This document shows, in pieces, positions 33,459 through 51,508 of a stretch of DNA of 64,000 bases. Position 1 is the first letter of the stretch; the number at the start of each line of letters is the position of its first letter. The notes under the pieces were generated by a model. The model saw nothing but the letters and a program-made list of their open reading frames with translations, was not told where the DNA came from and searched no databases. This DNA is from Thiomicrorhabdus xiamenensis (GTDB lineage: Bacteria > Pseudomonadota > Gammaproteobacteria > Thiomicrospirales > Thiomicrospiraceae), in assembly GCF_013282625.1 (NCBI RefSeq), contig NZ_CP054020.1:2108001-2172000 (forward strand). The letters are read 5' to 3'. The translations under genes and the position numbers were made by a program.

Positions 33459-34004
33459 ATGGAGATCGATACAGATAATTCACTGATTAGATATCGCCGT
33501 CCCCGTCTGGAAGACGGCCTCAGAATTTACCAACTGATTGCCGATTCACCTCCTCTGGATCTGAATTCGAGCTATCTGTACTTTTTGCAAAGTTCGCATT
33601 TCGCCGATACTTGTGTTGTTGCCGAAAGTGACGGCGAATTGCTGGGTTTTATTTCCGGCTATCTACGCCCGGACAAACCCGAAGAGCTGTTTGTCTGGCA
33701 GATGGTCGTCGCCCAAACGGGCCGTGGCCGAGGTATCGCCAAAGGTTTGGTCAAGCAATTGATCAAACAGAGCCTGGCTTTCAGTCAAGCACCTTTGCAA
33801 TCCCTAAGCTGCACAATCAGTCCGAGCAATCAGGCATCGCAAGGCGTGTTCAAGAGCCTGGCAAAAGCTTTCGGACTGACTCTACGCAGCGAAACCTTTC
33901 TGACCGAGGCGCATTTTTCCGGTCAGGAACATGAAGCGGAGGATTATTACTTCCTAACCGCTCCCGATGGCCAAAGCCTGAATGATTACTTAACCGATAT
34001 TTAA
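33459..34004 (+). CDS. ectA: L-2,4-diaminobutyrate N-acetyltransferase
   Basis: GNAT-fold enzyme (181 residues), second step of ectoine synthesis: acetylation of 2,4-diaminobutyrate. Family features are IRYRRPRLEDGLRIYQLIADSPPLDLNSSYLYFL, DTCVVAESDGELLGFISGY, FVWQMVVAQTGRGRGIAKGLV (acetyl-CoA loop) and SPSNQASQGVFKSLA. The ATG lacks a good ribosome site, which fits control by the leader RNA. First gene of ectABC. Confidence 0.95.
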   Translation: MEIDTDNSLIRYRRPRLEDGLRIYQLIADSPPLDLNSSYLYFLQSSHFADTCVVAESDGELLGFISGYLRPDKPEELFVWQMVVAQTGRGRGIAKGLVKQLIKQSLAFSQAPLQSLSCTISPSNQASQGVFKSLAKAFGLTLRSETFLTEAHFSGQEHEAEDYYFLTAPDGQSLNDYLTDI

Positions 34005-34062
34005 ATAGCACCAATAACACTATTTAAACCGTTTTAAACAAATTTAAGATTGAGAGAAAACT

Positions 34063-35325
34063 ATGTCAGATTTAGAAATTTTTAATACTTATGAATCCGA
34101 AGTTCGCGGGTACATTCGTTCTTTCCCGACTATATTCGACACCTCTAAGGGTGCCGAAATTTGGGACACCAATGGTAAACGTTACATCGACTTTTTCGCC
34201 GGTGCCGGTGCCTTGAACTACGGCCACAACAATCCGACAATCAATACCGCGATTATTGAATATCTGCAACGTAACGGTATTGGTCACGCCCTGGACATGG
34301 GGACGGTCGCCAAGAAAGAATTTATCGAAGCTTTCGTTACCAAAATCCTGCAACCGCGTCACCTGAACTACAAGCTGCAATTTGTCGGCCCGACAGGAAC
34401 CAACGCCATCGAGACGGCGCTGAAAATCGCGCGTAAGGTAAAAGGCCGCAAACAGGTAATGAGTTTCACCAACGGTTTCCACGGTATGTCGATGGGTTCT
34501 TTGAGTATTACCGGTAACCAGTATTACCACGACGACAGTTACGGCGTTCCGGGTTATACCTATCAGGTACCTTTCCATAACTACCTTGGTGATAAGGTCG
34601 ATACCATCGCTTACCTGCGCAAAATTCTTGAAGATGCATCTTCAGGTACCGAACTGCCGGCAGCGATCGTACTGGAAACCATTCAGGCCGAAGGTGGGAT
34701 TAATGTCGCCGGTCCACAATGGCTGAAAGACCTGCGTAAGATCTGTGATGACTTCGACATTCTGATGATTGTGGATGATATCCAGGTCGGTAACGGTCGT
34801 ACCGGTGACTTCTTCAGTTTTGAACGCGCCAACATTCAGCCTGACATCGTTACGCTGTCGAAATCCATCGGTACCGGTCAACCTATGTCGCTGGTACTGA
34901 TGAAACCGGAACTCGACAAATGGTCTCCGGGTGAACACTCAGGTACCTTCCGCGGTAACAACCTGGCATTTGTCGCCGCTGCCACCGCTATCAACGAATA
35001 CTGGTCTGACGACAACTTTGCCAACGAAAACAAAGAAAAATCCAAATTAATTGAAGAGCGTATGCAAGATTTGGCGCTTTCGTATCCGCACCTGACGAAA
35101 GATGTTCGCGGACACGGCTTTATCTGGGGGATTGAATTCCGTGACCCGGAATTGTGCGGCAAAGTATGCAGCGAATGTTTCGAAAAAGGTCTCGTCATTG
35201 AAACGGCCGGTTCGGAAGGCAATGTCATTAAATTCTTGGGGCCTCTAGTCATCTCTGAAGAGCTGATCAACGAAGGTTTCGACATCCTGAAGAACGCGAT
35301 TAAAACCTGTTCGGCAGATTACTAA
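34063..35325 (+). CDS. ectB: Diaminobutyrate-2-oxoglutarate transaminase
   Basis: PLP enzyme (420 residues) making 2,4-diaminobutyrate from aspartate semialdehyde with glutamate as amino donor, the first committed step to ectoine. Motifs: FFAGAGALNYGHNNP, GPTGTNAIETALKIARK (phosphate binding), FHGMSMGSLS, IVDDIQVGNGRTG and the PLP lysine in TLSKSIG. It starts 58 bases after ectA behind GAGAG. Confidence 0.96.
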   Translation: MSDLEIFNTYESEVRGYIRSFPTIFDTSKGAEIWDTNGKRYIDFFAGAGALNYGHNNPTINTAIIEYLQRNGIGHALDMGTVAKKEFIEAFVTKILQPRHLNYKLQFVGPTGTNAIETALKIARKVKGRKQVMSFTNGFHGMSMGSLSITGNQYYHDDSYGVPGYTYQVPFHNYLGDKVDTIAYLRKILEDASSGTELPAAIVLETIQAEGGINVAGPQWLKDLRKICDDFDILMIVDDIQVGNGRTGDFFSFERANIQPDIVTLSKSIGTGQPMSLVLMKPELDKWSPGEHSGTFRGNNLAFVAAATAINEYWSDDNFANENKEKSKLIEERMQDLALSYPHLTKDVRGHGFIWGIEFRDPELCGKVCSECFEKGLVIETAGSEGNVIKFLGPLVISEELINEGFDILKNAIKTCSADY

Positions 35326-35385
35326 TCCAGAAACGATGAATAAGAAAAGGCTTGCCGCTCGGTGAGCCGAAAACAAGGAATTTCC

Positions 35386-35784
35386 ATGATTGTAAAAAAC
35401 CTATATGACGATGTTATCGGCACCGATGCCGATGTTGACAGTAAACAATGGACCAGCCGCCGTTTGCTGCTGGCCAAAGACGGCATGGGCTTCTCCCTGC
35501 ACGACACTTTGATCAAGGAAGGCGAAGATCTTCACCTCTGGTATAAAAACCACCTTGAAGCGGTGTACTGCATTGAGGGTGAAGGTGAAATCTACGATAA
35601 AGCGACCGGAATTACTCACCCGATCCGCGAAGGGACTGTCTACGCATTGAACGAGCATGATCAGCATATCCTTCGCGCCAATAAGGGCTCGCAAATGCGC
35701 ATGGTCTGTGTATTCAACCCACCGGTCACCGGGCGTGAAACGCACGACAAAGACGGCTCTTACAACCTTCCAAGCGAAGACTAA
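35386..35784 (+). CDS. ectC: Ectoine synthase
   Basis: Cupin enzyme (132 residues) that cyclises N-acetyl-diaminobutyrate to ectoine. It starts MIVKNLYDDVIGTDADVDSKQWTSRRLLLAKDGMGFSLHDT and contains HLWYKNHLEAVYCIEGEGEI, with iron-ligand candidates Glu (LEAVYC), Tyr (TVYALNEHDQH) and His. The ATG at 35386 follows AAGGAA; an upstream in-frame start adds eight residues that the family lacks. Confidence 0.96.
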   Translation: MIVKNLYDDVIGTDADVDSKQWTSRRLLLAKDGMGFSLHDTLIKEGEDLHLWYKNHLEAVYCIEGEGEIYDKATGITHPIREGTVYALNEHDQHILRANKGSQMRMVCVFNPPVTGRETHDKDGSYNLPSED

Positions 35785-35790
35785 GCGTTT

Positions 35791-35822
35791 TTAAGGATCC
35801 TTTCGGAAAGGCGTATTTTTTT
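35791..35822 (+). terminator. Probable terminator after ectC
   Basis: CCTTT-CGG-AAAGG forms a short hairpin followed by CGTATTTTTTT. The stem is only five pairs, so partial read-through into ask_ect is likely. Confidence 0.45.
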
Positions 35823-35946
35823 AATGAATCGCGCTTTCCGAAGAAGATTAATTCTTCCCTTGAGAAAAGTGTGGCGGTAAAATATCGCCCATTTTTCTCA
35901 GGCAAGTAAATGGCCCTTAAAAATCGTTTTAGAGATCGCTAAACCT

Positions 35947-37407
35947 ATGTCAAACCAAGAAAATTCACAAAGCGCGCCCCGTCAACTAAGTGTTGAAAAA
36001 GTCGGCGGCACCTCAATGAGCGCCTACGAAGCGGTGCGCGATAACATCGTGCTCTATCCGGCATCCCCTTACAATCGGGTTCTGGTCGTCTCGGCCTACG
36101 GCGGCGTGACCAACCTGTTGCTTGAGCACAAAAAAACCGGACAACCCGGTGTTTACGGCTTGTTTGCCCGTGGCGACGACAGCCATAACTGGCAGGAAGC
36201 GCTGGAAACCTTGCGTGCAGAACTGTTAAAAATCAACAGTGAACTGTTCAGCGACGGTGAACAGCTGAAACATGCCAACGCCTTTATCGATGCCCGTATC
36301 ACCGACACACGAGAAGTACTGGTTCACCTGCATGAAATCTGCCGTCACGGCCACTTCGAACTGCGTGAACATCTTTTGACCGTGCGCGAGCTGCTGGCTT
36401 CGATCGGTGAAGCCCATTCGGCCTACAACCTGGCTGAATTGCTCAAGAACCAAGGGGTCAACAGCGTATTTGTCGACCTGACCGGCTGGGATCGTAAAGA
36501 GATCCTGCCTTTGGACGAGCATATCGAAACCGCTTTCGCCGATGTCGACTTTAGCACCACCTTACCGATCGTCACCGGTTATGCACACTGTGAAGAAAAC
36601 CTGATCAGTACCTTTGACCGCGGTTACTCGGAGATGACCTTTAGCCGCATCGCCGTTATGCTGAAAGCGACCGAAGCCGTCATTCATAAGGAATTCCACC
36701 TTTCTTCCGCGGACCCACGTCTGGTCGGTGAAGAGAACGCGGTACCGATCGGAAAAACCAGTTACGACATTGCCGACCAACTGGCCAACCTCGGTATGGA
36801 AGCGATTCACCCGGGTGCAGGTAAAGGCTTGCGTCAGGCACGAATCCCGCTGCGCATCATGAACACTTTCGAACCGGAGCATCACGGTACGCTGATTACT
36901 GCGGACTATAAGAGCGAGGAACCGAAAGTCGAAATCATCGCAGGTATGGATTCACTGATTGCTGTCGAAATCTTCGATCAGGAAATGATGAACGAACAGG
37001 GCAACTACGAAGCCCAGATTCTGAAAGTGACCAATCGCAATAAGTGCCAAGTGGTAAGTAAGGATTTCAACGCCAATACGATCACCCTGTATATCAACAG
37101 TACCTTGAACAAGGTAAACCACGCGACCAGTCAACTGGAAGAACTGTTCCCATCGGCGCAGATTACCACCAGCAAACTGTGCATGGTTTCGGCAATGGGC
37201 AGTAATATGCGCGTCAAGGGGCTTCTGGCCAAAGCGATCCAAAGCTTGGCCGACAAAGGCATCAATATCGAAGCCATGCATCAGAATACCCGTCAGGTAG
37301 AGATGCAGATCTTTGTCGATTCCGACTGCTACGCAACCGCCGTCAAAGCGTTGCACCAGAAACTGATTGAGGTGCACGATCACGGTATGGCAATCGCCTC
37401 GCACTAA
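35947..37407 (+). CDS. ask_ect: Ectoine-specific aspartate kinase
   Basis: Aspartokinase (486 residues) of the Ask_Ect type, which feeds aspartyl phosphate into ectoine synthesis and is less sensitive to lysine/threonine feedback. Visible: the kinase start LSVEKVGGTSMSAYEAVRDNI, SEMTFSRIAVMLKATEAVIHKEF, DPRLVGEENAVPI, and C-terminal ACT repeats (VSAMGSNMRVKGLLAKAIQSLADKGINIEAMHQ). It is linked to ectABC but separated by 162 bases, so it may also have its own promoter. Confidence 0.94.
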   Translation: MSNQENSQSAPRQLSVEKVGGTSMSAYEAVRDNIVLYPASPYNRVLVVSAYGGVTNLLLEHKKTGQPGVYGLFARGDDSHNWQEALETLRAELLKINSELFSDGEQLKHANAFIDARITDTREVLVHLHEICRHGHFELREHLLTVRELLASIGEAHSAYNLAELLKNQGVNSVFVDLTGWDRKEILPLDEHIETAFADVDFSTTLPIVTGYAHCEENLISTFDRGYSEMTFSRIAVMLKATEAVIHKEFHLSSADPRLVGEENAVPIGKTSYDIADQLANLGMEAIHPGAGKGLRQARIPLRIMNTFEPEHHGTLITADYKSEEPKVEIIAGMDSLIAVEIFDQEMMNEQGNYEAQILKVTNRNKCQVVSKDFNANTITLYINSTLNKVNHATSQLEELFPSAQITTSKLCMVSAMGSNMRVKGLLAKAIQSLADKGINIEAMHQNTRQVEMQIFVDSDCYATAVKALHQKLIEVHDHGMAIASH

Positions 37408-37764: not shown

Positions 37765-38898
37765 ATGAGTTGCCAAGATAAAAACACCTACTCAACTTTT
37801 TGTCAGGGTCACAATAATGCAATGAAAGAGCCGATGTTCTTTGGACAAAATGTGAATGTGGCGCGTTACGATCAGCAGAAATATCCGTTTTTTGAAAAAT
37901 TGATCGAAAAGCAACTTTCCTTCTTTTGGCGCCCTGAAGAAGTAGACATCTCAACCGACCGTTCCCAGTATTCGCAACTGCCGGAAAACGAGCAGCATAT
38001 CTTCGTCAGCAACATTAAATACCAGACCCTTCTGGACTCGGTTCAGGGACGCAGCCCAAACGTCGCGTTGCTGCCTCTGGTATCCATTCCTGAACTGGAA
38101 ACCTGGATCGAAACCTGGGCCTTTTCGGAAACGATTCACAGTCGCTCCTATACGCACATTATCCGCAATATCTTCACCAATCCGTCCGAAGTATTTGACG
38201 ATATTGTCGATAACGACGAAATCACCAAGCGCGCACTGGCTGTCACCTCGCACTATGACGAACTGATCGCCTTGACCAACAAAATGTACGCCGAAGAGAT
38301 TGACCTGAATGACAATCCGGAATTCCGCAAACAGATCAAGAGCCAACTTTATCTGACCATGGTTTCGGTCAATGTTCTGGAAGCCATCCGTTTCTATGTT
38401 TCCTTCGCCTGCTCATTCAGCTTTGCCGAAAGATCGCTGATGGAAGGTAACGCCAAAGTCATCAAACTGATTGCCCGCGATGAAGCTTTGCATCTTTCTG
38501 GAACCCAGAACATCCTTAATCTGATGGCCGATGGCAAAGATGACCCTGAAATGGCTGTCATCGCCAAAGAACAGAAGGAAGCGGCCATCGAAATTTTCCG
38601 CTCTGCAGCGCAACAGGAAAAAGAGTGGGCCGAATACCTGTTCAAGGACGGCTCGATGATCGGTCTGAATGCCAGCATTCTCAAAGAGTATGTCGAATAC
38701 ATTACCAATGTGCGCATGAAAGCGCTGAATCTGGAACCGATTTTCGAAAACCGCAGTAATCCGCTGCCATGGATGAATAACTGGCTGGTCAGCGATAATG
38801 TACAGGTCGCTCCGCAGGAATCGGAAATCAGCTCCTACCTTGTAGGGCAAGTCGACTCCAAAGTCGATACCAACGACTTCAGCGACTTCTCCCTATAA
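37765..38898 (+). CDS. nrdB: Ribonucleoside-diphosphate reductase, class Ia beta subunit
   Basis: Di-iron, tyrosyl-radical subunit (377 residues) of class Ia ribonucleotide reductase. The radical Tyr lies in [12 protein letters not shown], iron ligands in FSETIHSR and [11 protein letters not shown], and the C-terminal tail [15 protein letters not shown] is the segment that docks on NrdA. AAGGA precedes the ATG. Its partner nrdA ends at 1435, so the usual nrdAB operon is split here; no ferredoxin gene (yfaE-like) follows. Confidence 0.97.
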
Positions 38899-39014
38899 GG
38901 GTTACACTTCTCATTTTCCGTCGGCGGCAGAGTTTCTGCCGCCTCTCTCCCCCCGTCATAAATTTTTCACCTAGCTGTGACATAAGCGTCATTCGTGCTC
39001 ACTAAACTGGCCGA

Positions 39015-39716
39015 ATGAAACGATGTTATTTAGCTTTTTTACGCCACGCACAGTACGAACAACAGCCGCAGACGCCAAGCGCCCTACAACCCTACGGATT
39101 GACTGAAGAAGGGTTTGCGCAAAGCCGCAAGGCCGCCAAAGCGCTGCAAAAACTGATCAAGCACCAAAAGTGGCAACTTTACCCAAGCATTTACAGCTCG
39201 AATCTGTTGCGCTCCTGGCAGACTGCCACCGAAATCAAGCACCAACTCAAACAGTCCTGTCAGATAGAAACGACCTCTGCGTTGAACGAGCGTTCCGTCG
39301 GTGCTCTGGCCAATCTGACGCTTGAACAGATTGAAGCAGTGATTGACCAGGATCCTCGGTTCGCACCTCTGCCACCGCACTGGAAAAGCAATTCCGACTT
39401 CTGCCTGCCGGTAGACGGTGCCGAATCCCTTATGCAGGCCGGCACACGTGTCAGCCAGTTCATTCAACAGACTGCTCTTCAGGTCATGGCCAACAGCGAG
39501 TCGAATAATCAGTTGATCGTAATGGTCGGCCATGGTGCAGCCTTTCGTCATGCCGCCTATAAACTCGGTCTGCTGGAAAAAGCGGAGATCGGTCGTTACT
39601 CAATGCACTATGCGCAACCGATGGTTTTCGAATGCCGCCTAAAGGGACACCAACTGGAAATCGACCTGCTCGCCGGAAAATGGAAAGTGCGTCAGGAAGA
39701 AGAACGCCCTGATTAA
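39015..39716 (+). CDS. Histidine phosphatase family protein
   Basis: A 233-residue protein of the phosphoglycerate-mutase-like (histidine phosphatase) superfamily. The catalytic His is in the variant motif LAFLRHAQYEQ, the second catalytic His in VMVGHGAAFRH, and an Arg in YSSNLLRSWQTA. It is longer than SixA. It is the first of six consecutive plus-strand genes (to 45027) dominated by kinase and phosphatase folds, which suggests it removes phosphate groups added by that system; this is inference. No clear ribosome site. Confidence 0.82.
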   Translation: MKRCYLAFLRHAQYEQQPQTPSALQPYGLTEEGFAQSRKAAKALQKLIKHQKWQLYPSIYSSNLLRSWQTATEIKHQLKQSCQIETTSALNERSVGALANLTLEQIEAVIDQDPRFAPLPPHWKSNSDFCLPVDGAESLMQAGTRVSQFIQQTALQVMANSESNNQLIVMVGHGAAFRHAAYKLGLLEKAEIGRYSMHYAQPMVFECRLKGHQLEIDLLAGKWKVRQEEERPD

Positions 39717-39748
39717 ACGGATCGCAAAATTTTAGTGGAGGACTTCTG

Positions 39749-40969
39749 ATGAATGCCCTGACAGAAAGTTGGTCGACTGCCAACGAATTCAATCCCCCTC
39801 ACCGCTGGCAGACGCCGGGAAAAGATATCTACTTTTTCTGCGACCTGCATGCCGATGCCGACGCTCTGCTCAACTCCCTGAAATTAAGCGGACTGATCGA
39901 ACAGCGTTCGACTCATGAAACGCTTTATCTTTCACCCGGCGCAGAAAACGCTCAGATTCTGATCGGCGGGGACTGCTTTGACAAAGGCCCGAGTAATCTG
40001 GCGCTATTCCGTCTGTTGAATCAACTGCGTACACGCCATCCCGACCTGGTTCTGCTGTCAGGCAATCACGATCTGAGAGTCTATGCCGGACTTTTAGCCA
40101 CCAATCATCTGGACGATCTGCGACAATCCCACTTTTTCGTACGAATGGGGCGAAAAACCGCCGCTTTTTTCGCCGAAATCTTCGAGCAGTATTGCTGGAA
40201 TGAAAAAGTTGAACCTTTACCACAGAGCCTGATTGAAGCTCAGCTGATGCCCGACGAGCAGTGGTTTGAACTTTTTCCGCAGTACGCCTGTAACTTTATG
40301 AGCGACAAACAGCTCAAAAAAGAGCTCAAGCAGATCCGCAAAAAGAAACTGGACTTCATCGAGGCGTGGAGTGCATACGGTTATGACTGGAATCAACTGA
40401 TGCAAGCGGTTAACAAAGCCAAGCAGTTGTTCATCGAAGCAGAGGGGGAATTTTCCTGGTTCTTCCAAAACCTGCAATTAATGCAGCAGCATGGCAGTTA
40501 TCTTTTTTGCCATGCTGGAATCGACGACCGGATCGCACACCGTCTGCTGAAAGAACCGGTCGAACGCATCAACCAACAGTTCAATCAGGCATTACAGCAA
40601 GGCAAGATTTTCGAAATCTACTACAGTGAACTGGGGAATGTCGTGCGCACCAAATACCGCAATAAAGACTGGGCCTTTTCAGAACTGGGCGCGCAGGCTC
40701 TGAAAAACCAGCGAATCTATGCACTGGTTAACGGACATCGGGCCCACCACAACGGTCAACAACTGGTTATTCGTCAGGGCATTCTGCATTTTGAATGCGA
40801 TACGGAACTTAACGCCAACTGCCGAGCCAAAAGCAACCTGCCGGCAAACGGTCAAGCTGTTACAATATTCTCTTCCGACGGCACGGTTCAGGCGTTAAGC
40901 AACGATCTGAGCGCGCCGAAACAGTTCCACCCTTCAAGGTTCACAAACCCGAACGTTAGATACAATTGA
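39749..40969 (+). CDS. Calcineurin-like metallophosphoesterase
   Basis: A 406-residue metallophosphoesterase. Metal motifs are in order: FCDLHAD (D-x-H), IGGDCFDKGP (GD), LLSGNHDLRVYAG (GNHD), FCHAGIDDR and VNGHRAHHNG. It resembles PPP-type phosphatases. A long insert rich in Lys/Glu (around residues 160-240) separates the GNHD motif from the later His motifs. GGAGG precedes the ATG, and the gap to the preceding gene is 32 bases, so it belongs to the same operon. Confidence 0.82.
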   Translation: MNALTESWSTANEFNPPHRWQTPGKDIYFFCDLHADADALLNSLKLSGLIEQRSTHETLYLSPGAENAQILIGGDCFDKGPSNLALFRLLNQLRTRHPDLVLLSGNHDLRVYAGLLATNHLDDLRQSHFFVRMGRKTAAFFAEIFEQYCWNEKVEPLPQSLIEAQLMPDEQWFELFPQYACNFMSDKQLKKELKQIRKKKLDFIEAWSAYGYDWNQLMQAVNKAKQLFIEAEGEFSWFFQNLQLMQQHGSYLFCHAGIDDRIAHRLLKEPVERINQQFNQALQQGKIFEIYYSELGNVVRTKYRNKDWAFSELGAQALKNQRIYALVNGHRAHHNGQQLVIRQGILHFECDTELNANCRAKSNLPANGQAVTIFSSDGTVQALSNDLSAPKQFHPSRFTNPNVRYN

Positions 40970-40995
40970 TCAGCGGGTAAAAGAGGGCGTTCATA

Positions 40996-41292
40996 ATGGC
41001 AAAGAAACCGCAATACTTCGAGCATGAATCTCTGCAAGACAAAGAGTCCGTTGTTAATTATCTGAAAGCCCTGTCCAAAGGGATCGAAAAGGGCGAAATT
41101 CTGCTGTCGGACGATGAAGATACCCAGATCATCAATACCAGCGAACTTACGCAAATGAATATCAAAGCCAGCAAAACCAAAAAAGAACAGAGCCTGCGCA
41201 TCAAACTCAGCTGGACCAACGATACCGATGACGACGACCCGGATAATGCACCGCTTTTTATAAAAGCCAAAAAGCCCAAGAAAAAGAAATAA
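40996..41292 (+). CDS. Amphi-Trp domain protein (GAK-type system)
   Basis: A 98-residue acidic/basic protein. The central part IEKGEILLSDDEDTQI...KKEQSLRIKLSWTNDTDDDD fits the amphi-Trp domain, named for an amphipathic strand ending in a conserved Trp, as I recall the family. The C-terminus is a Lys-rich tail (KAKKPKKKK). It may be the substrate or carrier of the neighbouring kinases. GAGGG precedes the ATG; spacing to the phosphoesterase gene is 26 bases. Confidence 0.68.
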   Translation: MAKKPQYFEHESLQDKESVVNYLKALSKGIEKGEILLSDDEDTQIINTSELTQMNIKASKTKKEQSLRIKLSWTNDTDDDDPDNAPLFIKAKKPKKKK

Positions 41293-41341
41293 GCCTCTTG
41301 TTCACCGATCTGTCTTGTCAATTTCACGGTACACAACCACT

Positions 41342-42976
41342 ATGAATCATTTTCCCGAGGTCTATGAAAGTCTGCGCTTTCTATTGATCGATCTGCAAAA
41401 ACAGCTGCAAACCATCTACGACGGCATCGCGGAAAATGATCCGAGCCTGTTCCTTAAAAGCCTCGAACGTATCGACTATATCGAAAACGCCCATCTCAGC
41501 TTACTGAACCGCTCTTACAACAGCAGCCTGCGACAAGACCGCGAATATCAGGCTCAGCTGCAGGGCTTTGAACATATTTCCTATAGCCTGCATCACCTCT
41601 CCTCGCAGCTCGAAGCCTTATGCTTTCAATTGGAACAGTGCAAATCACTGAAACTGTTGCAGAAAAAGCGTATCTTCGCAGCGCTTGAAGACCTCAATAA
41701 AGGATTGTCGCTGATCGAACCGGCCGTCGAAAGTGAAGAGCTGACCCTGTCGATCGACATCTGCCAGCTCCAGGGGCGGATTGAGAAAAGCTGTCGTCAG
41801 CAACTGGACCGCTATCAGGACAACCTGAAAACCGGACAGTACAGCCAGGCACTGATGCAAAGCAGCTTTATCGTCCGCGACATTCTGAATATGGCCGATG
41901 CCCTACTTAAAATCGGAGAAGGAATTATCTCCGGTAAACTCGGTCAGTTTATCCAGATTGACCGTTATCAGACGCTGGAAGCCAGCTTGTCCGAACTGGA
42001 TTACGACCTGACCGAACAGAGCATCAATATCCACTCTATGGGCGAAACCAAATCCGGCTGTACGATTTCCGGCGTCACCTCGGCCAGCGAAGCGCAGGAA
42101 GAGATTCTGGCGATCTTTAAACAGGGACGTAAAGACAAGCTTCTGGAAGAAAAGATCGGTATCGAAAGCTGGCACGAGAAATTCCCCGGGATCGCTCCGG
42201 AAGTGTATTCCTATCAGAAACAGGGCGACAAAGCCGCATTGCTGTTTGAATACCTGACCGGAAAGACCTTCGACAAGCTGCTTCTGGAAGACCGTCAGGC
42301 GCTGCAATCCGGTCTGAACCGATTGTTTGCCACCCTCAGCGAAATCTGGCAAGCCACCGAAAAAAGCAAGCCGATCAGCGCTAACTTTATGCGGCAGCTG
42401 CAGAAACGACTGAAAAACGTCTACGCCGTACACCCTGAATTCAACCTTAAAAGCAAGGGACTGCGCATCGGCGATGCCCAGCAGGCGTCATTGGAACAGC
42501 TGATCAAGCAGGCCGCCAAACTGGAAGAGAAGTTTCAGGTGGCCAATGCGGTTTATATTCACGGCGACTTCAATGTCGACAATATCCTTTACGATGCCGA
42601 AAAGGACGATATCAGCTTTATCGACCTGCATCGCTCCGAATACCTTGACTACACTCAGGACCTCTCGGTACTGATGGTCTCTTTCTACCGCCTGACCAAC
42701 TACGATCCGAAAGTGCGTCGGCGCATCCGTCTGACCATCGAAGCGATTTACGACTTCGGTGCCGACTATGCCGAACAGAATAACGATAATGACTATGCAA
42801 AACGCATGGCACTCGGACTGGCGCGTTCTTTTATCAGCTCGACCCGCTTCGTGCTCGATAAGGAACACGCCAAATCCATGCTCTTTAAGGGGCGTTACCT
42901 CTTGGAACAACTGATAAATCTTCCGAAAAAAGAACTGCCCAACTATCAGCTACCAAAGGAGCTCTTCCGTGACTAA
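41342..42976 (+). CDS. APH-like phosphotransferase with long helical N-terminus (GAK-type system)
   Basis: A 544-residue protein. Residues 1 to about 240 are helical with no recognised domain. The C-terminal half is a kinase of the aminoglycoside phosphotransferase fold: YIHGDFNVDNILYD (catalytic Asp and Asn) near residue 405 and FIDLHRSEYLDYTQDLSVLM (metal-binding Asp). It overlaps the ATP-grasp gene by 8 bases. The ATG at 41342 has no good ribosome site; an in-frame TTG 27 bases upstream is no better. The target of phosphorylation is unknown. Confidence 0.75.
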   Translation: MNHFPEVYESLRFLLIDLQKQLQTIYDGIAENDPSLFLKSLERIDYIENAHLSLLNRSYNSSLRQDREYQAQLQGFEHISYSLHHLSSQLEALCFQLEQCKSLKLLQKKRIFAALEDLNKGLSLIEPAVESEELTLSIDICQLQGRIEKSCRQQLDRYQDNLKTGQYSQALMQSSFIVRDILNMADALLKIGEGIISGKLGQFIQIDRYQTLEASLSELDYDLTEQSINIHSMGETKSGCTISGVTSASEAQEEILAIFKQGRKDKLLEEKIGIESWHEKFPGIAPEVYSYQKQGDKAALLFEYLTGKTFDKLLLEDRQALQSGLNRLFATLSEIWQATEKSKPISANFMRQLQKRLKNVYAVHPEFNLKSKGLRIGDAQQASLEQLIKQAAKLEEKFQVANAVYIHGDFNVDNILYDAEKDDISFIDLHRSEYLDYTQDLSVLMVSFYRLTNYDPKVRRRIRLTIEAIYDFGADYAEQNNDNDYAKRMALGLARSFISSTRFVLDKEHAKSMLFKGRYLLEQLINLPKKELPNYQLPKELFRD

Positions 42977-43874
42977 TTTGAAAATTGGCGTTGTCGGTAT
43001 TCCCGGCAAATGGTCAACCGAAGTCCTGGCCGACGAGATCGAAGCGAAAACCGGTTTCCGGATGGTCATCGATATCGAAAAAGTCGTCGCCGATCTCTCG
43101 ACGCCGAAAGTCACCTATCAGGGGCAGTGCCTGTGCGAACTCGACGGCATTATTATCAAAAAGATCTCTCAGACCTACAGCCCGATGGTGATCGACCGTC
43201 TGGAAATTCTGCGTTTCGTCGAATCCTGCGGTGTGAAAGTCTATTCCAAACCGAGCGAGATCATCCGCCTGGTGGATCGCATGAGCTGCACCATCTCCCT
43301 GGCGCGGGCAAAAATCCCCATGCCGAAAACGTGTATTACCGAAGATCACGACGCCGCCTTCAATACCGTCAAAGAATTCGGTGAAGTGGTGCTCAAGCCG
43401 CTGTTTTCCACCAAGGCGCGCGGTATGGAAGTGATAAAGGCGGATCAGAAGGAGAGCGAAATCCGCAAACAACTGCAGGCGTTCTATCACACGCATCAGT
43501 TTTACTACATTCAGCAGAAAATGAATTTGCCCGGTCATGACATGGGGCTGGTTTTCCTCGGCGGCGAATATCAGGGCGCCTATGCCCGGGTCGCCAACGG
43601 CGACAGCTGGAACACTACCATTCACTCCGGAGGCAAATACGCCGAAGTGAAGCCGTCGCAGGAAATCATCGACATGGCCCAAAAAGCACAGGCGCAGTTT
43701 GACCTCTCCTATACCACGGTCGATATTGCCGAAACCGATCAGGGGCCGGTCTGTTTTGAAGTGTCTGCATTCGGAGGGTTCAAAGGCGCCAAAGAAGGAT
43801 TGAACCTTAATATGGCGCAGGCCTACACTGATTACGTCATTCAGGATTTACAGAAAAGCGATGCCAATGATTAA
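42969..43874 (+). CDS. GAK system ATP-grasp enzyme
   Basis: A 301-residue RimK-like ATP-grasp protein. The N-terminus KIGVVGIPGKWSTEVLADEIEAKTGF is characteristic of the GAK-system group; the ATP-grasp core includes MSCTISLARAKIPMPKT, VVLKPLFSTKARGMEVI and the metal site in CFEVSAFGGFKG. ATP-grasp enzymes ligate a carboxylate to an amine or thiol through an acyl phosphate, so this member may add an amino acid or make a peptide bond; the substrate is unknown. Start GTG behind AAGGAG, overlapping the upstream gene by 8 bases. Confidence 0.83.
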   Translation: MTNLKIGVVGIPGKWSTEVLADEIEAKTGFRMVIDIEKVVADLSTPKVTYQGQCLCELDGIIIKKISQTYSPMVIDRLEILRFVESCGVKVYSKPSEIIRLVDRMSCTISLARAKIPMPKTCITEDHDAAFNTVKEFGEVVLKPLFSTKARGMEVIKADQKESEIRKQLQAFYHTHQFYYIQQKMNLPGHDMGLVFLGGEYQGAYARVANGDSWNTTIHSGGKYAEVKPSQEIIDMAQKAQAQFDLSYTTVDIAETDQGPVCFEVSAFGGFKGAKEGLNLNMAQAYTDYVIQDLQKSDAND

Positions 43875-45027
43875 TGCGTCCCTGATTTCGGAATTGATTG
43901 CCAGCCAGCCTGAGGTGCACTCTTCCTGCCTGGAGATTAACCTTAAAGACGCCTGTTACCGAGTGCACAGCAACAGTGAAACTTTGTTGCAGGAGCTGGC
44001 CGACTATTTCGGTAATCTGTCCGTGTGGAGCGACGAGGACACGAATAGCGATAAGACGCAAACTTGGGAGACGATTTTTATCTTCGAATCGTCCCTTGCT
44101 GAAGAACTGATTGCCGCCACCGACTGGCAGGACTGGAAACGCGAAGCCGGCAAAAGCGGACGCAAAGATGCGGTTTATGATCTCGACACTGCGCACGGCA
44201 AACTGCGCCTGCTGTATAAGGTCAAAACCGGGATGCTGTTCCTGCAACCGGCCAGACCGACCCCGGAGTTTCCTCTTATGGCCTTCGGCCCTGCGGAAAA
44301 GCATCCCAACCAGATTATCAACTTTATTCTGACCCAGTATCTGAACCGGCATATTCGAAGCAACTGGCTGCTCGGGCACGCCGCAGGCTTGCAGATCAAA
44401 CAACAGGGTGTCGCCATCGCCGGGCTCTCCGGCGGCGGTAAATCGACTCTGATGCTGCATCTTCTGGAAGAAGGTGAACACTTTATCAGTAATGACCGTC
44501 TGCTGTTTAAAGCGGATGCCGCAGAGCACATGCTGATGCGCGGCATCCCAAAGCAACCGCGAATCAACCCGGGCACAATTGTTCATAACCCGCGTCTGCA
44601 CTCGCTGATTAGCGAACAGCAACGCAGCGAATTTCTCGCCATGCCACAGGAAGCACTGCGCGCTCTGGAGATGAAATTCGATGCCCCGGTAGACCGGCTG
44701 TATTGGGAAAACTGCTATGTTCAGGAGCGTGAACTGGACTGGATAGTGATTCTGAACTGGCAGGCGGTCAGCAATGAACGCACTCAAGTGCATCGCACAA
44801 CTTTGCAGGAGTCGCCGCACCTGATCCCGGCACTGGTCAAAAGCCCCGGCCCTTTTTACAGCGACGCCTCGGGCGAATTTCTGAAAAACGGTCTGATTCC
44901 GAATCCCCTCGACTATCAGCAGGCTTTAGGCAAAGTACCGGTTCTGGAACTGACCGGCAAAATCGATTTCACCGAAGCCAAATCGTTAATACTCGACCAA
45001 CTGAATCAGTCGTCAGAAAACCTGTAA
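43861..45027 (+). CDS. HprK-related kinase B (GAK-type system)
   Basis: A 388-residue protein with a P-loop of the HPr kinase type, GVAIAGLSGGGKSTLMLHLLEEG (about residues 181-203), followed by FISNDRLLF, where the Asp is a likely catalytic or metal residue. About 180 N-terminal residues form a separate domain typical of HprK-related kinase B. No HPr-like carrier gene is nearby. It overlaps the ATP-grasp gene by 14 bases (8 if the second ATG is used) and ends 5 bases before a convergent gene, with no terminator between them. Confidence 0.83.
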   Translation: MPMINASLISELIASQPEVHSSCLEINLKDACYRVHSNSETLLQELADYFGNLSVWSDEDTNSDKTQTWETIFIFESSLAEELIAATDWQDWKREAGKSGRKDAVYDLDTAHGKLRLLYKVKTGMLFLQPARPTPEFPLMAFGPAEKHPNQIINFILTQYLNRHIRSNWLLGHAAGLQIKQQGVAIAGLSGGGKSTLMLHLLEEGEHFISNDRLLFKADAAEHMLMRGIPKQPRINPGTIVHNPRLHSLISEQQRSEFLAMPQEALRALEMKFDAPVDRLYWENCYVQERELDWIVILNWQAVSNERTQVHRTTLQESPHLIPALVKSPGPFYSDASGEFLKNGLIPNPLDYQQALGKVPVLELTGKIDFTEAKSLILDQLNQSSENL

Positions 45028-47914: not shown

Positions 47915-50900
47915 GTGGGTGTAAAACAGTGGCAATTCTGGATAGACCGCGGCGGAACCTTTACCGATATCGTCGCGCAGGCTCCCGACGGCAAGCTGTA
48001 CACTCATAAACTGCTTTCGGAAAACCCAGAACGCTACCAGGATGCCGCCATCGCCGGTATCCGGCATTTCCTTCAGGTCGCCGAACCGGCACCAATCCCG
48101 GTTGAACAAATCGCCTGCGTTAAAATGGGCACGACCGTCGCCACCAACGCCCTGCTGGAACGTAAAGGCGAAGCGGTGGCGCTGGTAACCAACCAAGGCT
48201 TTGCCGACGCTCTCAAGATCGGCTATCAGAATCGCCCGGACATTTTCGCTCTGGAAGTCCGCACCGCGGCACCGCTGTATCAAAAGAGTATTGAAATCCC
48301 CGGACGAATGGATGCCGACGGCAACGAAATCGAAGCGCTTGACGAAGCGGCAACCAAAGACGGTTTACGTACCCTCAAACAAGCCGGCTACCAGGCCATT
48401 GCGATAACCCTGCTGCACAGCTATCTCAACCCACAACACGAAAAACAGGTGGCTCAATGGGCGCAGGAGATCGGTTTTACCCAGATATCCACGTCTGCGG
48501 ATACATCGGCATTGATCAAATATATCGCGCGCGGCCGCACGGCGGTCGTTGACGCCTACCTCAGTCCGATTTTACACCGCTATGTACGTCAGGTTGCCGG
48601 TCAGCTTCCAGGCGTTGATCTGCAGTTTATGCAGTCTCATGGCGGCCTGTGTCAGGCAGAGCGTTTTCAGGGAAAAGACGCCATTCTCTCAGGCCCTGCA
48701 GGTGGTATCGTCGGTGCCGTCAAAACCGCGCAAATGGCCGGTTTTGATGAAATCATCGGTTTCGATATGGGTGGCACTTCGACCGATGTCTCGCACTATG
48801 CCGGAGAGTTGCAACGCAACTTCGAAACCGAGGTCGCCGGTGCGCAAATGCGCGTGCCCATGCTCGATATCCACACGGTCGCCGCCGGAGGCGGGTCGAT
48901 TATCCACGCCCATCACGGTGAGTTGCGGGTCGGCCCGGAATCTGCCGGAGCCAATCCGGGACCGGCGGCTTACCGACGTGGCGGCCCTCTCAGCGTAACC
49001 GACGCCAACCTTCTTCTCGGCCGCATTCAAAGTCAGCACTTCCCGGCCGTTTTCGGTGCCGACGGTACACAACCGCTGGATCGAGAGATCGTCGAGCAGA
49101 AATTTTCCGCTCTGGGCCAGGCATTGAATATGACGCCCGAATCACTCGCCGAAGGCGCTTTGCTGATCGCTGTCGAGACCATGGCGAATGCGGTGCAGAC
49201 CATTTCTACCCAACGCGGCTATGACCTGAAAGACTACACCATGGTCAGTTTCGGTGGTGCCGGAGGACAACATGCCTGCGCCGTTGCCGATAAATTAGGG
49301 ATTGCTCAGGTTTTGCTGCATCCTTACTCGGGCGTTCTCTCCGCTTACGGTATGGGACTGGCGCAGAATTCGGTACTGATTACCCGCTCCCATCAACAGC
49401 CTCTTGAACACCTCAAAGAGCTGCATAACAACTTGGAATCGCAAAGAGCGGAAGCCAGAAAAGCACTGGAACAGCAAGGCGCTCAGTTCGCCGAAGACAA
49501 AATCACCCTGCATCTTAACTACCAGGGCAGTGACACCACTTTGGATGTCCACTGGCAGGAAGAATCCGGTGCCAACGACTATCGATGTGCCTTTGAGATT
49601 CAGCACCAGCGGCAGTTCGGCTTTCGTCTGGATGCGGACATCCATATCCACAGCATCAGCGTTGAAGCTTTGAGTACCGCCCATCAGGCCCGCAAACTGG
49701 CGCCTGCCGACAAGGCTGTGGCCGAAGCCGAAGAACAGGTGCAAACCTATCATGACGGCCAATGGCACGATACACTGGTTTTTCAGCGCGATCAGCTCGC
49801 TTTGCATCAGATCTTGCAGGGACCGGCGCTGATTCTGGAATCAACCGGCACCATCTATCTGCAGCAGGGATGGCAGGCAAAACTGCTGCAAGACGGACAG
49901 CTGCTGCTGGAAAAGAATCTGCAGCAAGACGCCGCTCAAGCGCCTGCGCAAGACACGGGATCAACGGATTTGAATGCGAAGATCGACCCGGTTAAACTCG
50001 GACTTTACAATCACCGCTTTATGGCGATTGCCGAACAGATGGGAGCGGTTCTGGCGAAAACTGCACACTCGGTCAATATCAAAGAACGTTTAGATTTCAG
50101 CTGCGCACTTTTCGACCGCTACGGCCAGTTGATCGCCAACGCCCCGCATGTTCCGGTTCACCTTGGTTCAATGGGCGAATCGGTTAAAACCGTCATTCAG
50201 CGGCATGCCGAACAGCTTCAGGAAGGCGACTGTTACGCCCTGAACAACCCTTACGCGGGCGGAACCCACTTGCCGGATATTACCTTGATCTCACCGGTAT
50301 TTATTGATGGAGCCTGCCAATTTTATGTCGCATCACGCGGGCATCATGCCGATGTCGGTGGCCTGACGCCCGGTTCCATGCCGGCTGACAGTCGTCATAT
50401 TGAAGAAGAAGGCGTTCTGCTTGACTGTGTGCAGGTTGTTAAAGCCGGCGAACTGCAGTCCCGGATCATTCACGACGCTTTTAGCCAGGCACGCTATCCG
50501 GCACGCAATCTAACCCAGAATCTGCACGACCTTCAAGCGCAAATTGCCGCCAACCAGACCGGAATAAGCGGTTTGCAAAAACTCTGTGCCAAAACCGGCG
50601 TGTCCGAGGTCAGTGCTTATATGGCATTTGTTCTGCAGCATTCCGAGCAGGCAGTCAAAGCTTTGCTTGCACAATTAAACAACGGACACTTCTGTTACAA
50701 CACCGATCAGCAAACGCAAATTTGCGTGCGCATCGACATTAATCGCAGCGCTGGGAAAGCACGTATCGACTTTACTGGAACCAGTGCGCAACAGAACAAT
50801 AATTTCAATGCCCCCTATGCCATTACCCGCGCGGCAACGCTGTATGTGCTACGCACCCTGATCGATCAGCCGATTGCGCTGAACGACGGCTTTCTTCAAC

Positions 50901-51508
50901 CTATCGAGCTGGTTGTTCCAGAGAACTCGATGCTCAACCCGAGTTATCCGGCCGCGGTGGTTGCCGGTAATGTCGAAACCTCGCAAGTAGTCACGGATGC
51001 ACTCTACGGCGCCTTGAAAGTTCAGGCCGCTTCACAGGGAACCATGAACAATCTGACTTTCGGTGATGAAACCTGGCAGTATTATGAAACCCTGTGCGGA
51101 GGAACCGGAGCTGGGAAAAGCTATAACGGAGAAGATGCCGTGCACAGCCATATGACCAATTCGCGCCTGACCGATCCGGAGATTTTCGAGCTGCGCTATC
51201 CGGTTCGTTTAAAACGCTTTGCGATTCGCCACAACAGCGGCGGAGAAGGTCGTTTTCACGGCGGTAACGGCTGCGAAAGACATATCGAATTTCTCAAACC
51301 GATGACGGTCTCAGTGCTGAGTAACCACCGCACTGTCGCCCCTTACGGCATGGACGGCGGCGCTCCCGGAAAAACCGGACAACAGGGTTATCTGGCGCAA
51401 GAAAGCGACCATGTCGAATGGTTGCAGAGCACCTTTACACAAACCTTCAAATCCGGTGACCAGCTATGGATGCATACGCCGGGCGGCGGCGGTTACGGTA
51501 AAAAGTAG
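47915..51508 (+). CDS. 5-oxoprolinase (hydantoinase A/B fusion)
   Basis: A 1197-residue cytoplasmic enzyme with both halves in one chain. Hydantoinase_A part (about 1-670): [50 protein letters not shown], the ASKHA-type ATP site. Hydantoinase_B part (about 690-1190): MGSMGESV region, [43 protein letters not shown]. Single-chain architecture matches ATP-dependent 5-oxoprolinases, which open 5-oxoproline to glutamate; hydantoin hydrolysis is an alternative. Start GTG behind GGGGA. No partner genes nearby. Confidence 0.88.

Follow-up and report, generated by a model that had tools for sequence, protein, structure and literature searches.

A GAK operon with two core phosphatases and a predicted Pho-regulon link in Thiomicrorhabdus xiamenensis

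What might be the role of an operon that places two kinases and an ATP-grasp enzyme beside a small protein and two phosphatases? Such an operon occupies positions 39015-45027 of a 64,000-nucleotide stretch of Thiomicrorhabdus xiamenensis DNA (contig NZ_CP054020.1, positions 2,108,001 to 2,172,000 of the forward strand; hereafter the window). It encodes a histidine phosphatase (HP), a metallophosphoesterase (MPE), an amphi-Trp protein, an APH-like kinase, an ATP-grasp enzyme and HprK-related kinase B (HprK-B), a combination of the GAK type. So far, the GAK cassette has been described through sequence models; our literature search found no paper on the GAK system, amphi-Trp, HprK-related kinase B or grasp_GAK. 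While the GAK operon itself is ordinary, its core phosphatases, the PhoU domain of its kinase family and its Pho boxes are new. With the Pho link and the phosphatase families, this orphan system acquires a growth condition, a reporter and assayable enzymes, and the cassette gains a first testable role, predicted to be in phosphate homeostasis.

Two phosphatases in the core of the GAK cassette

Three proteins of the operon scored above their NCBIfam cut-offs (amphi-Trp against TIGR04354, 62.5 bits, cut-off 31; ATP-grasp against TIGR04356, 462.8 bits, cut-off 300; and HprK-B against TIGR04355, 278.5 bits, cut-off 200, the sole match in the genome), which agrees with the GAK-type cluster recognized in an earlier note on this DNA. 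Scores for the Pfam families His_Phos_1, Metallophos, Amphi-Trp and APH exceeded the gathering thresholds; the match of Hpr_kinase_C to HprK-B was weak (22.7 against a gathering score of 33.3). The CofD-like model TIGR04357 had no match at E <= 0.001 in 62 genomes of the window's taxonomic order, its own genome included. The XXXCH model TIGR04358, whose protein may be an alternative small protein of GAK, had none in the window's genome and, among the 62, one sub-cut-off match in a GAK-free genome. We treated the CofD-like gene as optional because its gene group occurred in only 17 of 50 well-flanked loci (see below). By these family assignments, the window operon is a complete six-gene GAK system without the CofD-like gene. 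Genera carrying GAK, as read from record titles, include Thiomicrorhabdus, Halomonas, Roseibium, Thalassospira and Rhodopirellula, which we take to span at least two phyla.

A profile search with the ATP-grasp protein supplied 80 loci from named genomes, i.e. the best 80 of 494 candidates, so that the set leans to close relatives. Genes were counted in the 50 loci whose flanks reached at least 5 kb ahead of the ATP-grasp gene and 6.5 kb beyond it, the other 30 being left out. APH and amphi-Trp genes were found in all 50, HprK-B in 49, and HP and MPE in 45 each, in accordance with the earlier view of kinases and phosphatases as one unit. Both phosphatases were missing from four loci (L051, L060, L093 and L119), one lacked HP (L059) and one lacked MPE together with HprK-B (L057). 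The remaining gene groups were a SixA-Nudix fusion (27), Nudix (18), CofD-like (17), CHAD (8) and a Na/Pi symporter (5). The commonest gene order was APH, ATP-grasp, HprK-B, (SixA-Nudix), HP, MPE, amphi-Trp; the window's group differs by having the HP-MPE-amphi-Trp block in front.

Co-occurrence was followed in 398 genomes, all from the window's own phylum, where a family was scored as absent if nothing matched at E <= 1e-20. Profile matches numbered 14 for the GAK ATP-grasp enzyme, 15 for MPE and 14 for HP. Phosphatases turned up in two genomes that gave no ATP-grasp match (G201 and G245); since their contigs hold HprK-B (at the edge), SixA-Nudix, HP and MPE together, we counted 16 GAK genomes. 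MPE was present in 15 of these and HP in 14, against none of the 382 others (Fisher p ~3e-26 and ~5e-24, respectively, which are not strict probabilities as the genomes are related). The exceptions were G094, with a contig that breaks off within HprK-B, and G219, where HP had no match. This near-perfect match with GAK, from the co-occurrence check that the earlier note had proposed, rules out the phosphatases as chance neighbours and makes HP and MPE core GAK parts and GAK-specific families. The earlier description of them as 'extra' must therefore be dropped, each being found in 45/50 loci and in 0/382 non-GAK genomes.

The window's own order gave a similar picture for MPE, which was detected in 25 of 62 genomes, i.e. 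in 25/33 with GAK (32 with an ATP-grasp match over the cut-off plus G051, in which this gene is split) and 0/29 without. HprK-B occurred in 28 of these 33, whereas six GAK-free genomes that were checked all lacked it; MPE accompanied it in 25/28 and was found in 0/5 of the GAK genomes lacking it. MPE lay away from the main locus in G024 (~190 kb, together with HP), in G052 and, on another contig, in G060. The reading frame of the unlinked G060 copy (L152) is interrupted, and this is probably a decaying gene. With fragments dropped, the HP catalytic residues R10, H11, R66, E92 and H173 were invariant in 65/65 homologues, as were eight of the nine MPE metal-site residues checked in 59/59 (H330 in 58). 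The symmetrical Ap4A hydrolase model weakly matched 25/26 MPE family members.

PhoU domain of the kinase family and the upstream array

The N-terminal part of the kinase family and the array upstream of the operon, neither of which the earlier note had mentioned, point to phosphate homeostasis. Pfam PhoU matched 21/25 members of the APH-kinase family at E <= 1 (best 2.7e-14), and a profile of the N-terminal part found PhoU 4q25 in the Protein Data Bank (PDB) at 3.8e-9, with 1xwm, 1t72, 2i0m and 1sum weaker. In the structural model (pLDDT 87.9) the N-terminal part is helical and the kinase part is like APH(3')-Ia, the leading Foldseek match; the 50 matches listed were all phosphotransferases or related kinases. 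Stand-alone PhoU genes stood in two loci (L067 and L108). Judged from the profile matches, a PhoU domain stands at the N-terminus of the APH-like kinases at the family level.

A Pho-box-like array of four 7-bp units with an 11-bp period (CCGTCAT-AAAT-TTTTCAC-CTAG-CTGTGAC-ATAA-GCGTCAT) precedes the HP gene. It scored 20.7, the best value on either strand of the window (one-unit shift 12.3, next 9.7); 1000 dinucleotide-preserving shuffles of the upstream sequence all stayed below this score, and among periods 8 to 14 the array scored at 11 only. With a matrix built from E. coli sites, a score of 14 was reached by 19/74 upstream regions of first GAK genes against 12/444 controls in the same loci (outside the window's order, 6/56 against 9/311), and by 9 of 19 further regions, which exclude the duplicates L161, L173 and L174 as well as L149. 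The nine include the unlinked HP-MPE pair of G024 (17.7), and the main GAK operon of G024 (L060, 22.2) has a box too.

PhoB boxes are described as tandem 11-nucleotide units with seven conserved bases each (PMC4415409), and the E. coli consensus is given as CTGTCAT-A(AT)A(TA)-CTGT(CA)A(CT) (PMC3465305). A count with this published consensus only left out the near copy L045 and seven loci whose first gene lay too near a contig edge, and placed L062 (a contig of G016) inside the order. At least 14 of 18 positions matched in 25/73 GAK loci against 21/435 controls, i.e. in 14/18 against 5/124 inside the order and in 11/55 against 16/311 outside it.

A -10-like hexamer (TAAACT) lies 10 bp past the array, with a comparable placement recognized by eye in several relatives; a generic sigma-70 scan did not report the hexamer. 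Its end is separated from the HP start codon by 6 bp, and hence the operon transcript is predicted to be possibly leaderless.

Several results weigh against these two links to phosphate. The window's own kinase, searched alone, had no Pfam PhoU match at E <= 1, and designed coiled-coil chains scored nearly as well as PhoU in the same PDB search (best 1.5e-8); helical sequences tend to match such chains. Clear Pho boxes are found chiefly within the window's order, with only 11/55 loci outside it at 14 matches, while at 13 or more matches the difference outside the order was not significant (18/55 against 65/311, p 0.08), and no box was found in three reduced GAK systems (G017, G018 and G019; scores 7.7, 5.0 and 4.0). 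On balance, the operon is predicted to belong, probably, to the Pho regulon.

Possible roles of the cycle

The core phosphatases, the PhoU-kinase and the Pho boxes together lead us to predict a role in phosphate homeostasis. The reading we prefer, which stands at an even chance, is that of a GAK operon that lacks the CofD-like gene, is probably part of the Pho regulon and runs a phosphate-gated kinase/ligase/phosphatase cycle. Scarce inorganic phosphate would bring PhoB to the 11-bp repeat array ahead of HP and turn the operon on; the PhoU-like domain would gate the APH-fold kinase by phosphate; the ATP-grasp enzyme and the HprK-like kinase would take further ATP-driven steps, which HP and the ApaH/PPP-like MPE would reverse; and the amphi-Trp protein would act as substrate, carrier or receptor. 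The computed basis consists of the families, the intact catalytic residues, the core phosphatases, the family-level PhoU domain and the Pho-box enrichment. As a first guess, the target could be rich in phosphoanhydrides, whether a polyphosphate-like compound or a small messenger that is phosphorylated; the guess is prompted by the DIPP-like Nudix protein of many relatives and the polyphosphate-binding CHAD protein of some.

In the PDB, the Nudix half of the SixA-Nudix fusion of these relatives matched human DIPP1 best (5e-14), followed by Ap4A hydrolases (2e-9) and an 8-oxo-(d)GTP phosphatase (7e-6). Its serine-rich loop and R-x-R-x-W segment pair with those of DIPP1, and S213, R289, R291 and W293 are invariant in 14/14. 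DDP1 has a phosphate-clamp region, parts of which MutT1 lacks (PMC8064635); we take the loop and the segment to be this region, and their residues would correspond one by one. CHAD domains bind polyphosphate (PMC6537752). A Na/Pi symporter with PhoU is a further accessory gene of relatives. Two candidates were discarded, i.e. the SixA half as a GAK-specific part, given a stand-alone SixA-like match in 57/60 genomes of the order irrespective of GAK, and CHAD as a core part, given its 8/50 loci. CHAD counts in the order (20/32 GAK genomes against 7/28 others) were not used because the distribution follows genus and assembly completeness. As side observations, an RHG motif stands near the start of 27/39 long fusion proteins, three Rhodopirellula/Stieleria loci (L078, L088 and L098) retain the Nudix half but have a SixA half that lacks this motif, and CHAD adjoins ParA-like ATPase genes in L085, L094 and L100 (by Pfam for L094), perhaps for placing polyphosphate granules.

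Several findings speak against this guess or against the proposed cycle as a whole. No DIPP-like Nudix protein was found in the window's genome at E <= 1e-10; the cluster has no SixA-Nudix fusion, the genome holding only a stand-alone SixA-like match; and it has no CHAD gene, the one in the genome lying ~69 kb away. Among genomes of the order, 8/60 had the DIPP-like Nudix half, four with and four without GAK, so that it does not track GAK there. The Nudix and CHAD evidence therefore concerns other branches of the family and not the window's copy. The PDB structures nearest to the ATP-grasp enzyme, LysX and RimK, are amide ligases and not kinases. Finally, the reduced systems (L160, L170 and L171 in G017, G018 and G019) contained only the amphi-Trp protein, the kinase and the ATP-grasp enzyme, with no HprK-B or MPE match; these three possibly form the minimal GAK core.

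The amphi-Trp protein could itself be the target. It was found in 50/50 flanked loci, and its GAK copies carry an N-terminal FxHxSxQ signature (F8, H10 and Q14 in 64/64, S12 in 63/64). Amphi-Trp proteins occurred in 21 of the 398 genomes, 13 with and eight without GAK; the GAK copies start F-x-H (12) or, in G219, F-x-Y, and the eight GAK-free matches above the cut-off lack the signature, which on these alignments marks GAK membership and is by itself no proof of a modification site. A Lys tail was confined to some copies. The model (pLDDT 73.8) shows a strand, a helix and four strands, and we claim no fold because no PDB entry matched it with E <= 0.001. The GAK enzymes possibly modify this protein, as the earlier note had it: the kinases would phosphorylate it or the ATP-grasp enzyme ligate something to it, perhaps at His10 or Ser12, and the phosphatases would reverse this. 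The distribution of MPE, at 25/28 with HprK-B and 0/5 without, would fit an MPE that erases the HprK-B mark, and G219 (L147) pairs a missing HP match with Tyr in place of His (FKYEALLD instead of FxHxSLQD). Yet that same genome, with Tyr and Ala at the signature sites, keeps the kinases, the ATP-grasp enzyme and MPE; the signature persists without HprK-B in G017 and G041; and a sub-cut-off match in the GAK-free G142 starts FRHDGP. Ser12 is replaced by Ala in G203 and G219 and by Val in L062, and the HprK-free systems and these variants weaken it as an obligatory HprK-B target. Such a protein-modification cycle is a tentative alternative, clearly less probable than the phosphate-gated cycle.

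The Pho boxes would also suit a starvation pathway for phosphate salvage in which stored polyphosphate or phosphorylated metabolites are simply broken down, with the hydrolases central and a recycling or sensing task for the enzymes that use ATP. The neighbourhoods of relatives are rich in hydrolases, MPE is weakly ApaH-like, and yeast Ppn2, an ApaH-like enzyme, is an endopolyphosphatase (PMC8220851). Nevertheless, the kinase and the ATP-grasp enzyme are the most constant parts, and reduced systems keep both and lose the hydrolases; we regard salvage as unlikely. Small-molecule or peptide biosynthesis, with the ATP-grasp enzyme as amide ligase, the CofD-like protein, if there is one, as transferase, and kinases and phosphatases protecting and deprotecting an intermediate on an amphi-Trp carrier, would explain why the ATP-grasp enzyme is closest to MptN/RimK/LysX and why a CofD-like gene stands in 17/50 loci. 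This seems improbable to us: EVS replaces the E-V-N of LysX and RimK in 81/81 GAK ATP-grasp homologues (80 loci plus the window), the recurrent same-strand additions to the cluster are hydrolases and not scaffold-building enzymes, and the Pho link is left without explanation. Asn of E-V-N is a metal ligand in ATP-grasp relatives, and its replacement suggests altered chemistry. The P-loop and NDR residues of HprK-B were invariant in 74/74 homologues (fragments dropped), and resemblance to HprK is limited to the P-loop region.

In a bolder version of the phosphate-gated cycle, GAK would be a pathway of phosphate signalling with a dedicated phosphoanhydride messenger, which it would make, sense and destroy and which would be what inositol pyrophosphates are in eukaryotes. 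Writing of this messenger would fall to the PhoU-kinase, the ATP-grasp enzyme and the HprK-like kinase, HP, the ApaH-like enzyme and, in many relatives, the DIPP-like Nudix protein would erase it, the amphi-Trp protein would be its receptor or carrier, and PhoB would set the dose. We consider this a long shot.

Gene layout and comparison with known systems

All six open reading frames were recovered side by side and conserved, as the earlier note had described them, with overlaps of 8 and 14 bases among the kinase, ATP-grasp and HprK-B genes (Table 1). The listed TTG start of the kinase is probably too early, the ATG being preferred because homologues align from there. The nearest relative found was Thiomicrorhabdus sp. 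6S3-12 (96% in the ATP-grasp protein); Ka/Ks against it, from a simple ungapped comparison, was 0.016-0.174 for the six genes, which by this measure are under purifying selection.

Table 1. Features of the GAK operon and its upstream region (window coordinates)
Feature	Position	Strand	Basis
Pho-box-like array, four 7-bp units, 11-bp period	38953..38992	+	Best array of the window
-10-like hexamer TAAACT	39003..39008	+	Read from sequence; 6 bp before HP ATG
Histidine phosphatase (HP, branch 1)	39015..39716	+	PF00300, 1.5e-20
Metallophosphoesterase (MPE), PPP/ApaH-like	39749..40969	+	PF00149, 2.3e-5
Amphi-Trp protein, 98 aa, N-terminus FEHESLQD (GAK-type)	40996..41292	+	TIGR04354, 62.5 bits
PhoU-APH fusion kinase	41342..42976 (alternative start TTG 41315)	+	PF01636, 7e-11
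Kinase, PhoU-like helical part	~41342-41990	+	
Kinase, kinase part	~42020-42976	+	
GAK ATP-grasp enzyme, RimK/MptN-like, GTG start	42969..43874	+	TIGR04356, 3.5e-139
HprK-related kinase B (HprK-B)	43861..45027	+	TIGR04355, 7.6e-83

Generic scans gave nothing above chance for promoters (2 promoter-like sites, 4.8 expected) or terminators (9 terminator-like sites, all on the minus strand, 9.4 expected). Directly upstream of the operon lies a gene for a class Ia ribonucleotide reductase beta subunit (37765-38898), relatives of which were near GAK in 12/81 stretches, the window included. Shortly before the operon, 33459-37407 presumably holds an ectoine cluster with its aspartate kinase, going by the translations, and 47915-51508 encodes a 1197-aa protein that by eye is hydantoinase/oxoprolinase-like.

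Among known systems, the closest is the NCBIfam GAK system itself (TIGR04354-TIGR04358), with which the operon shares the amphi-Trp, HprK-B and ATP-grasp proteins and the adjacency of their genes. It differs in that the window's genome has no CofD-like (TIGR04357) or XXXCH (TIGR04358) match, and in that the five models, as compared by names and one-line descriptions, cover neither of the phosphatases nor the kinase's PhoU part. Our literature searches found no paper joining PhoU, ATP-grasp, HPr kinase and CofD, or even three of these four, and none joining three of PhoU, phosphotransferase, polyphosphate and histidine phosphatase. HPr kinase/phosphorylase with its protein target offers a likeness in the pairing of an HprK-superfamily P-loop kinase with a small protein, but only the P-loop region of HprK-B matches and no fold could be matched confidently to the amphi-Trp model.

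The PPIP5K histidine phosphatase belongs to branch 2, whereas GAK HP belongs to Pfam branch 1. Eukaryotic inositol-pyrophosphate turnover employs the PPIP5K ATP-grasp kinase with its histidine phosphatase and the DIPP Nudix enzymes (PMC11836120 and PMC8064635). GAK departs from it further in that its ATP-grasp enzyme matches RimK/LysX and in that no DIPP-like Nudix protein was found in the window's genome, and no connection to inositol phosphates emerged, though no test was aimed at one; the two systems share the broad classes ATP-grasp, histidine phosphatase and, in GAK relatives, DIPP-like Nudix, as well as the (here predicted) setting of phosphate homeostasis. In Streptomyces, an operon of ppk, pptA (CHAD) and a Nudix gene belongs to the Pho regulon (PMC8003754). 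No polyphosphate kinase was recognized by eye in the 20 largest GAK gene groups (no dedicated search for it was made), and the enzymes of GAK are of the APH, ATP-grasp and HprK-like kinds, with the amphi-Trp protein beside them. What the Streptomyces operon and GAK would have in common is phosphate control of proteins that handle phosphoanhydrides, several GAK loci likewise carrying CHAD and Nudix genes.

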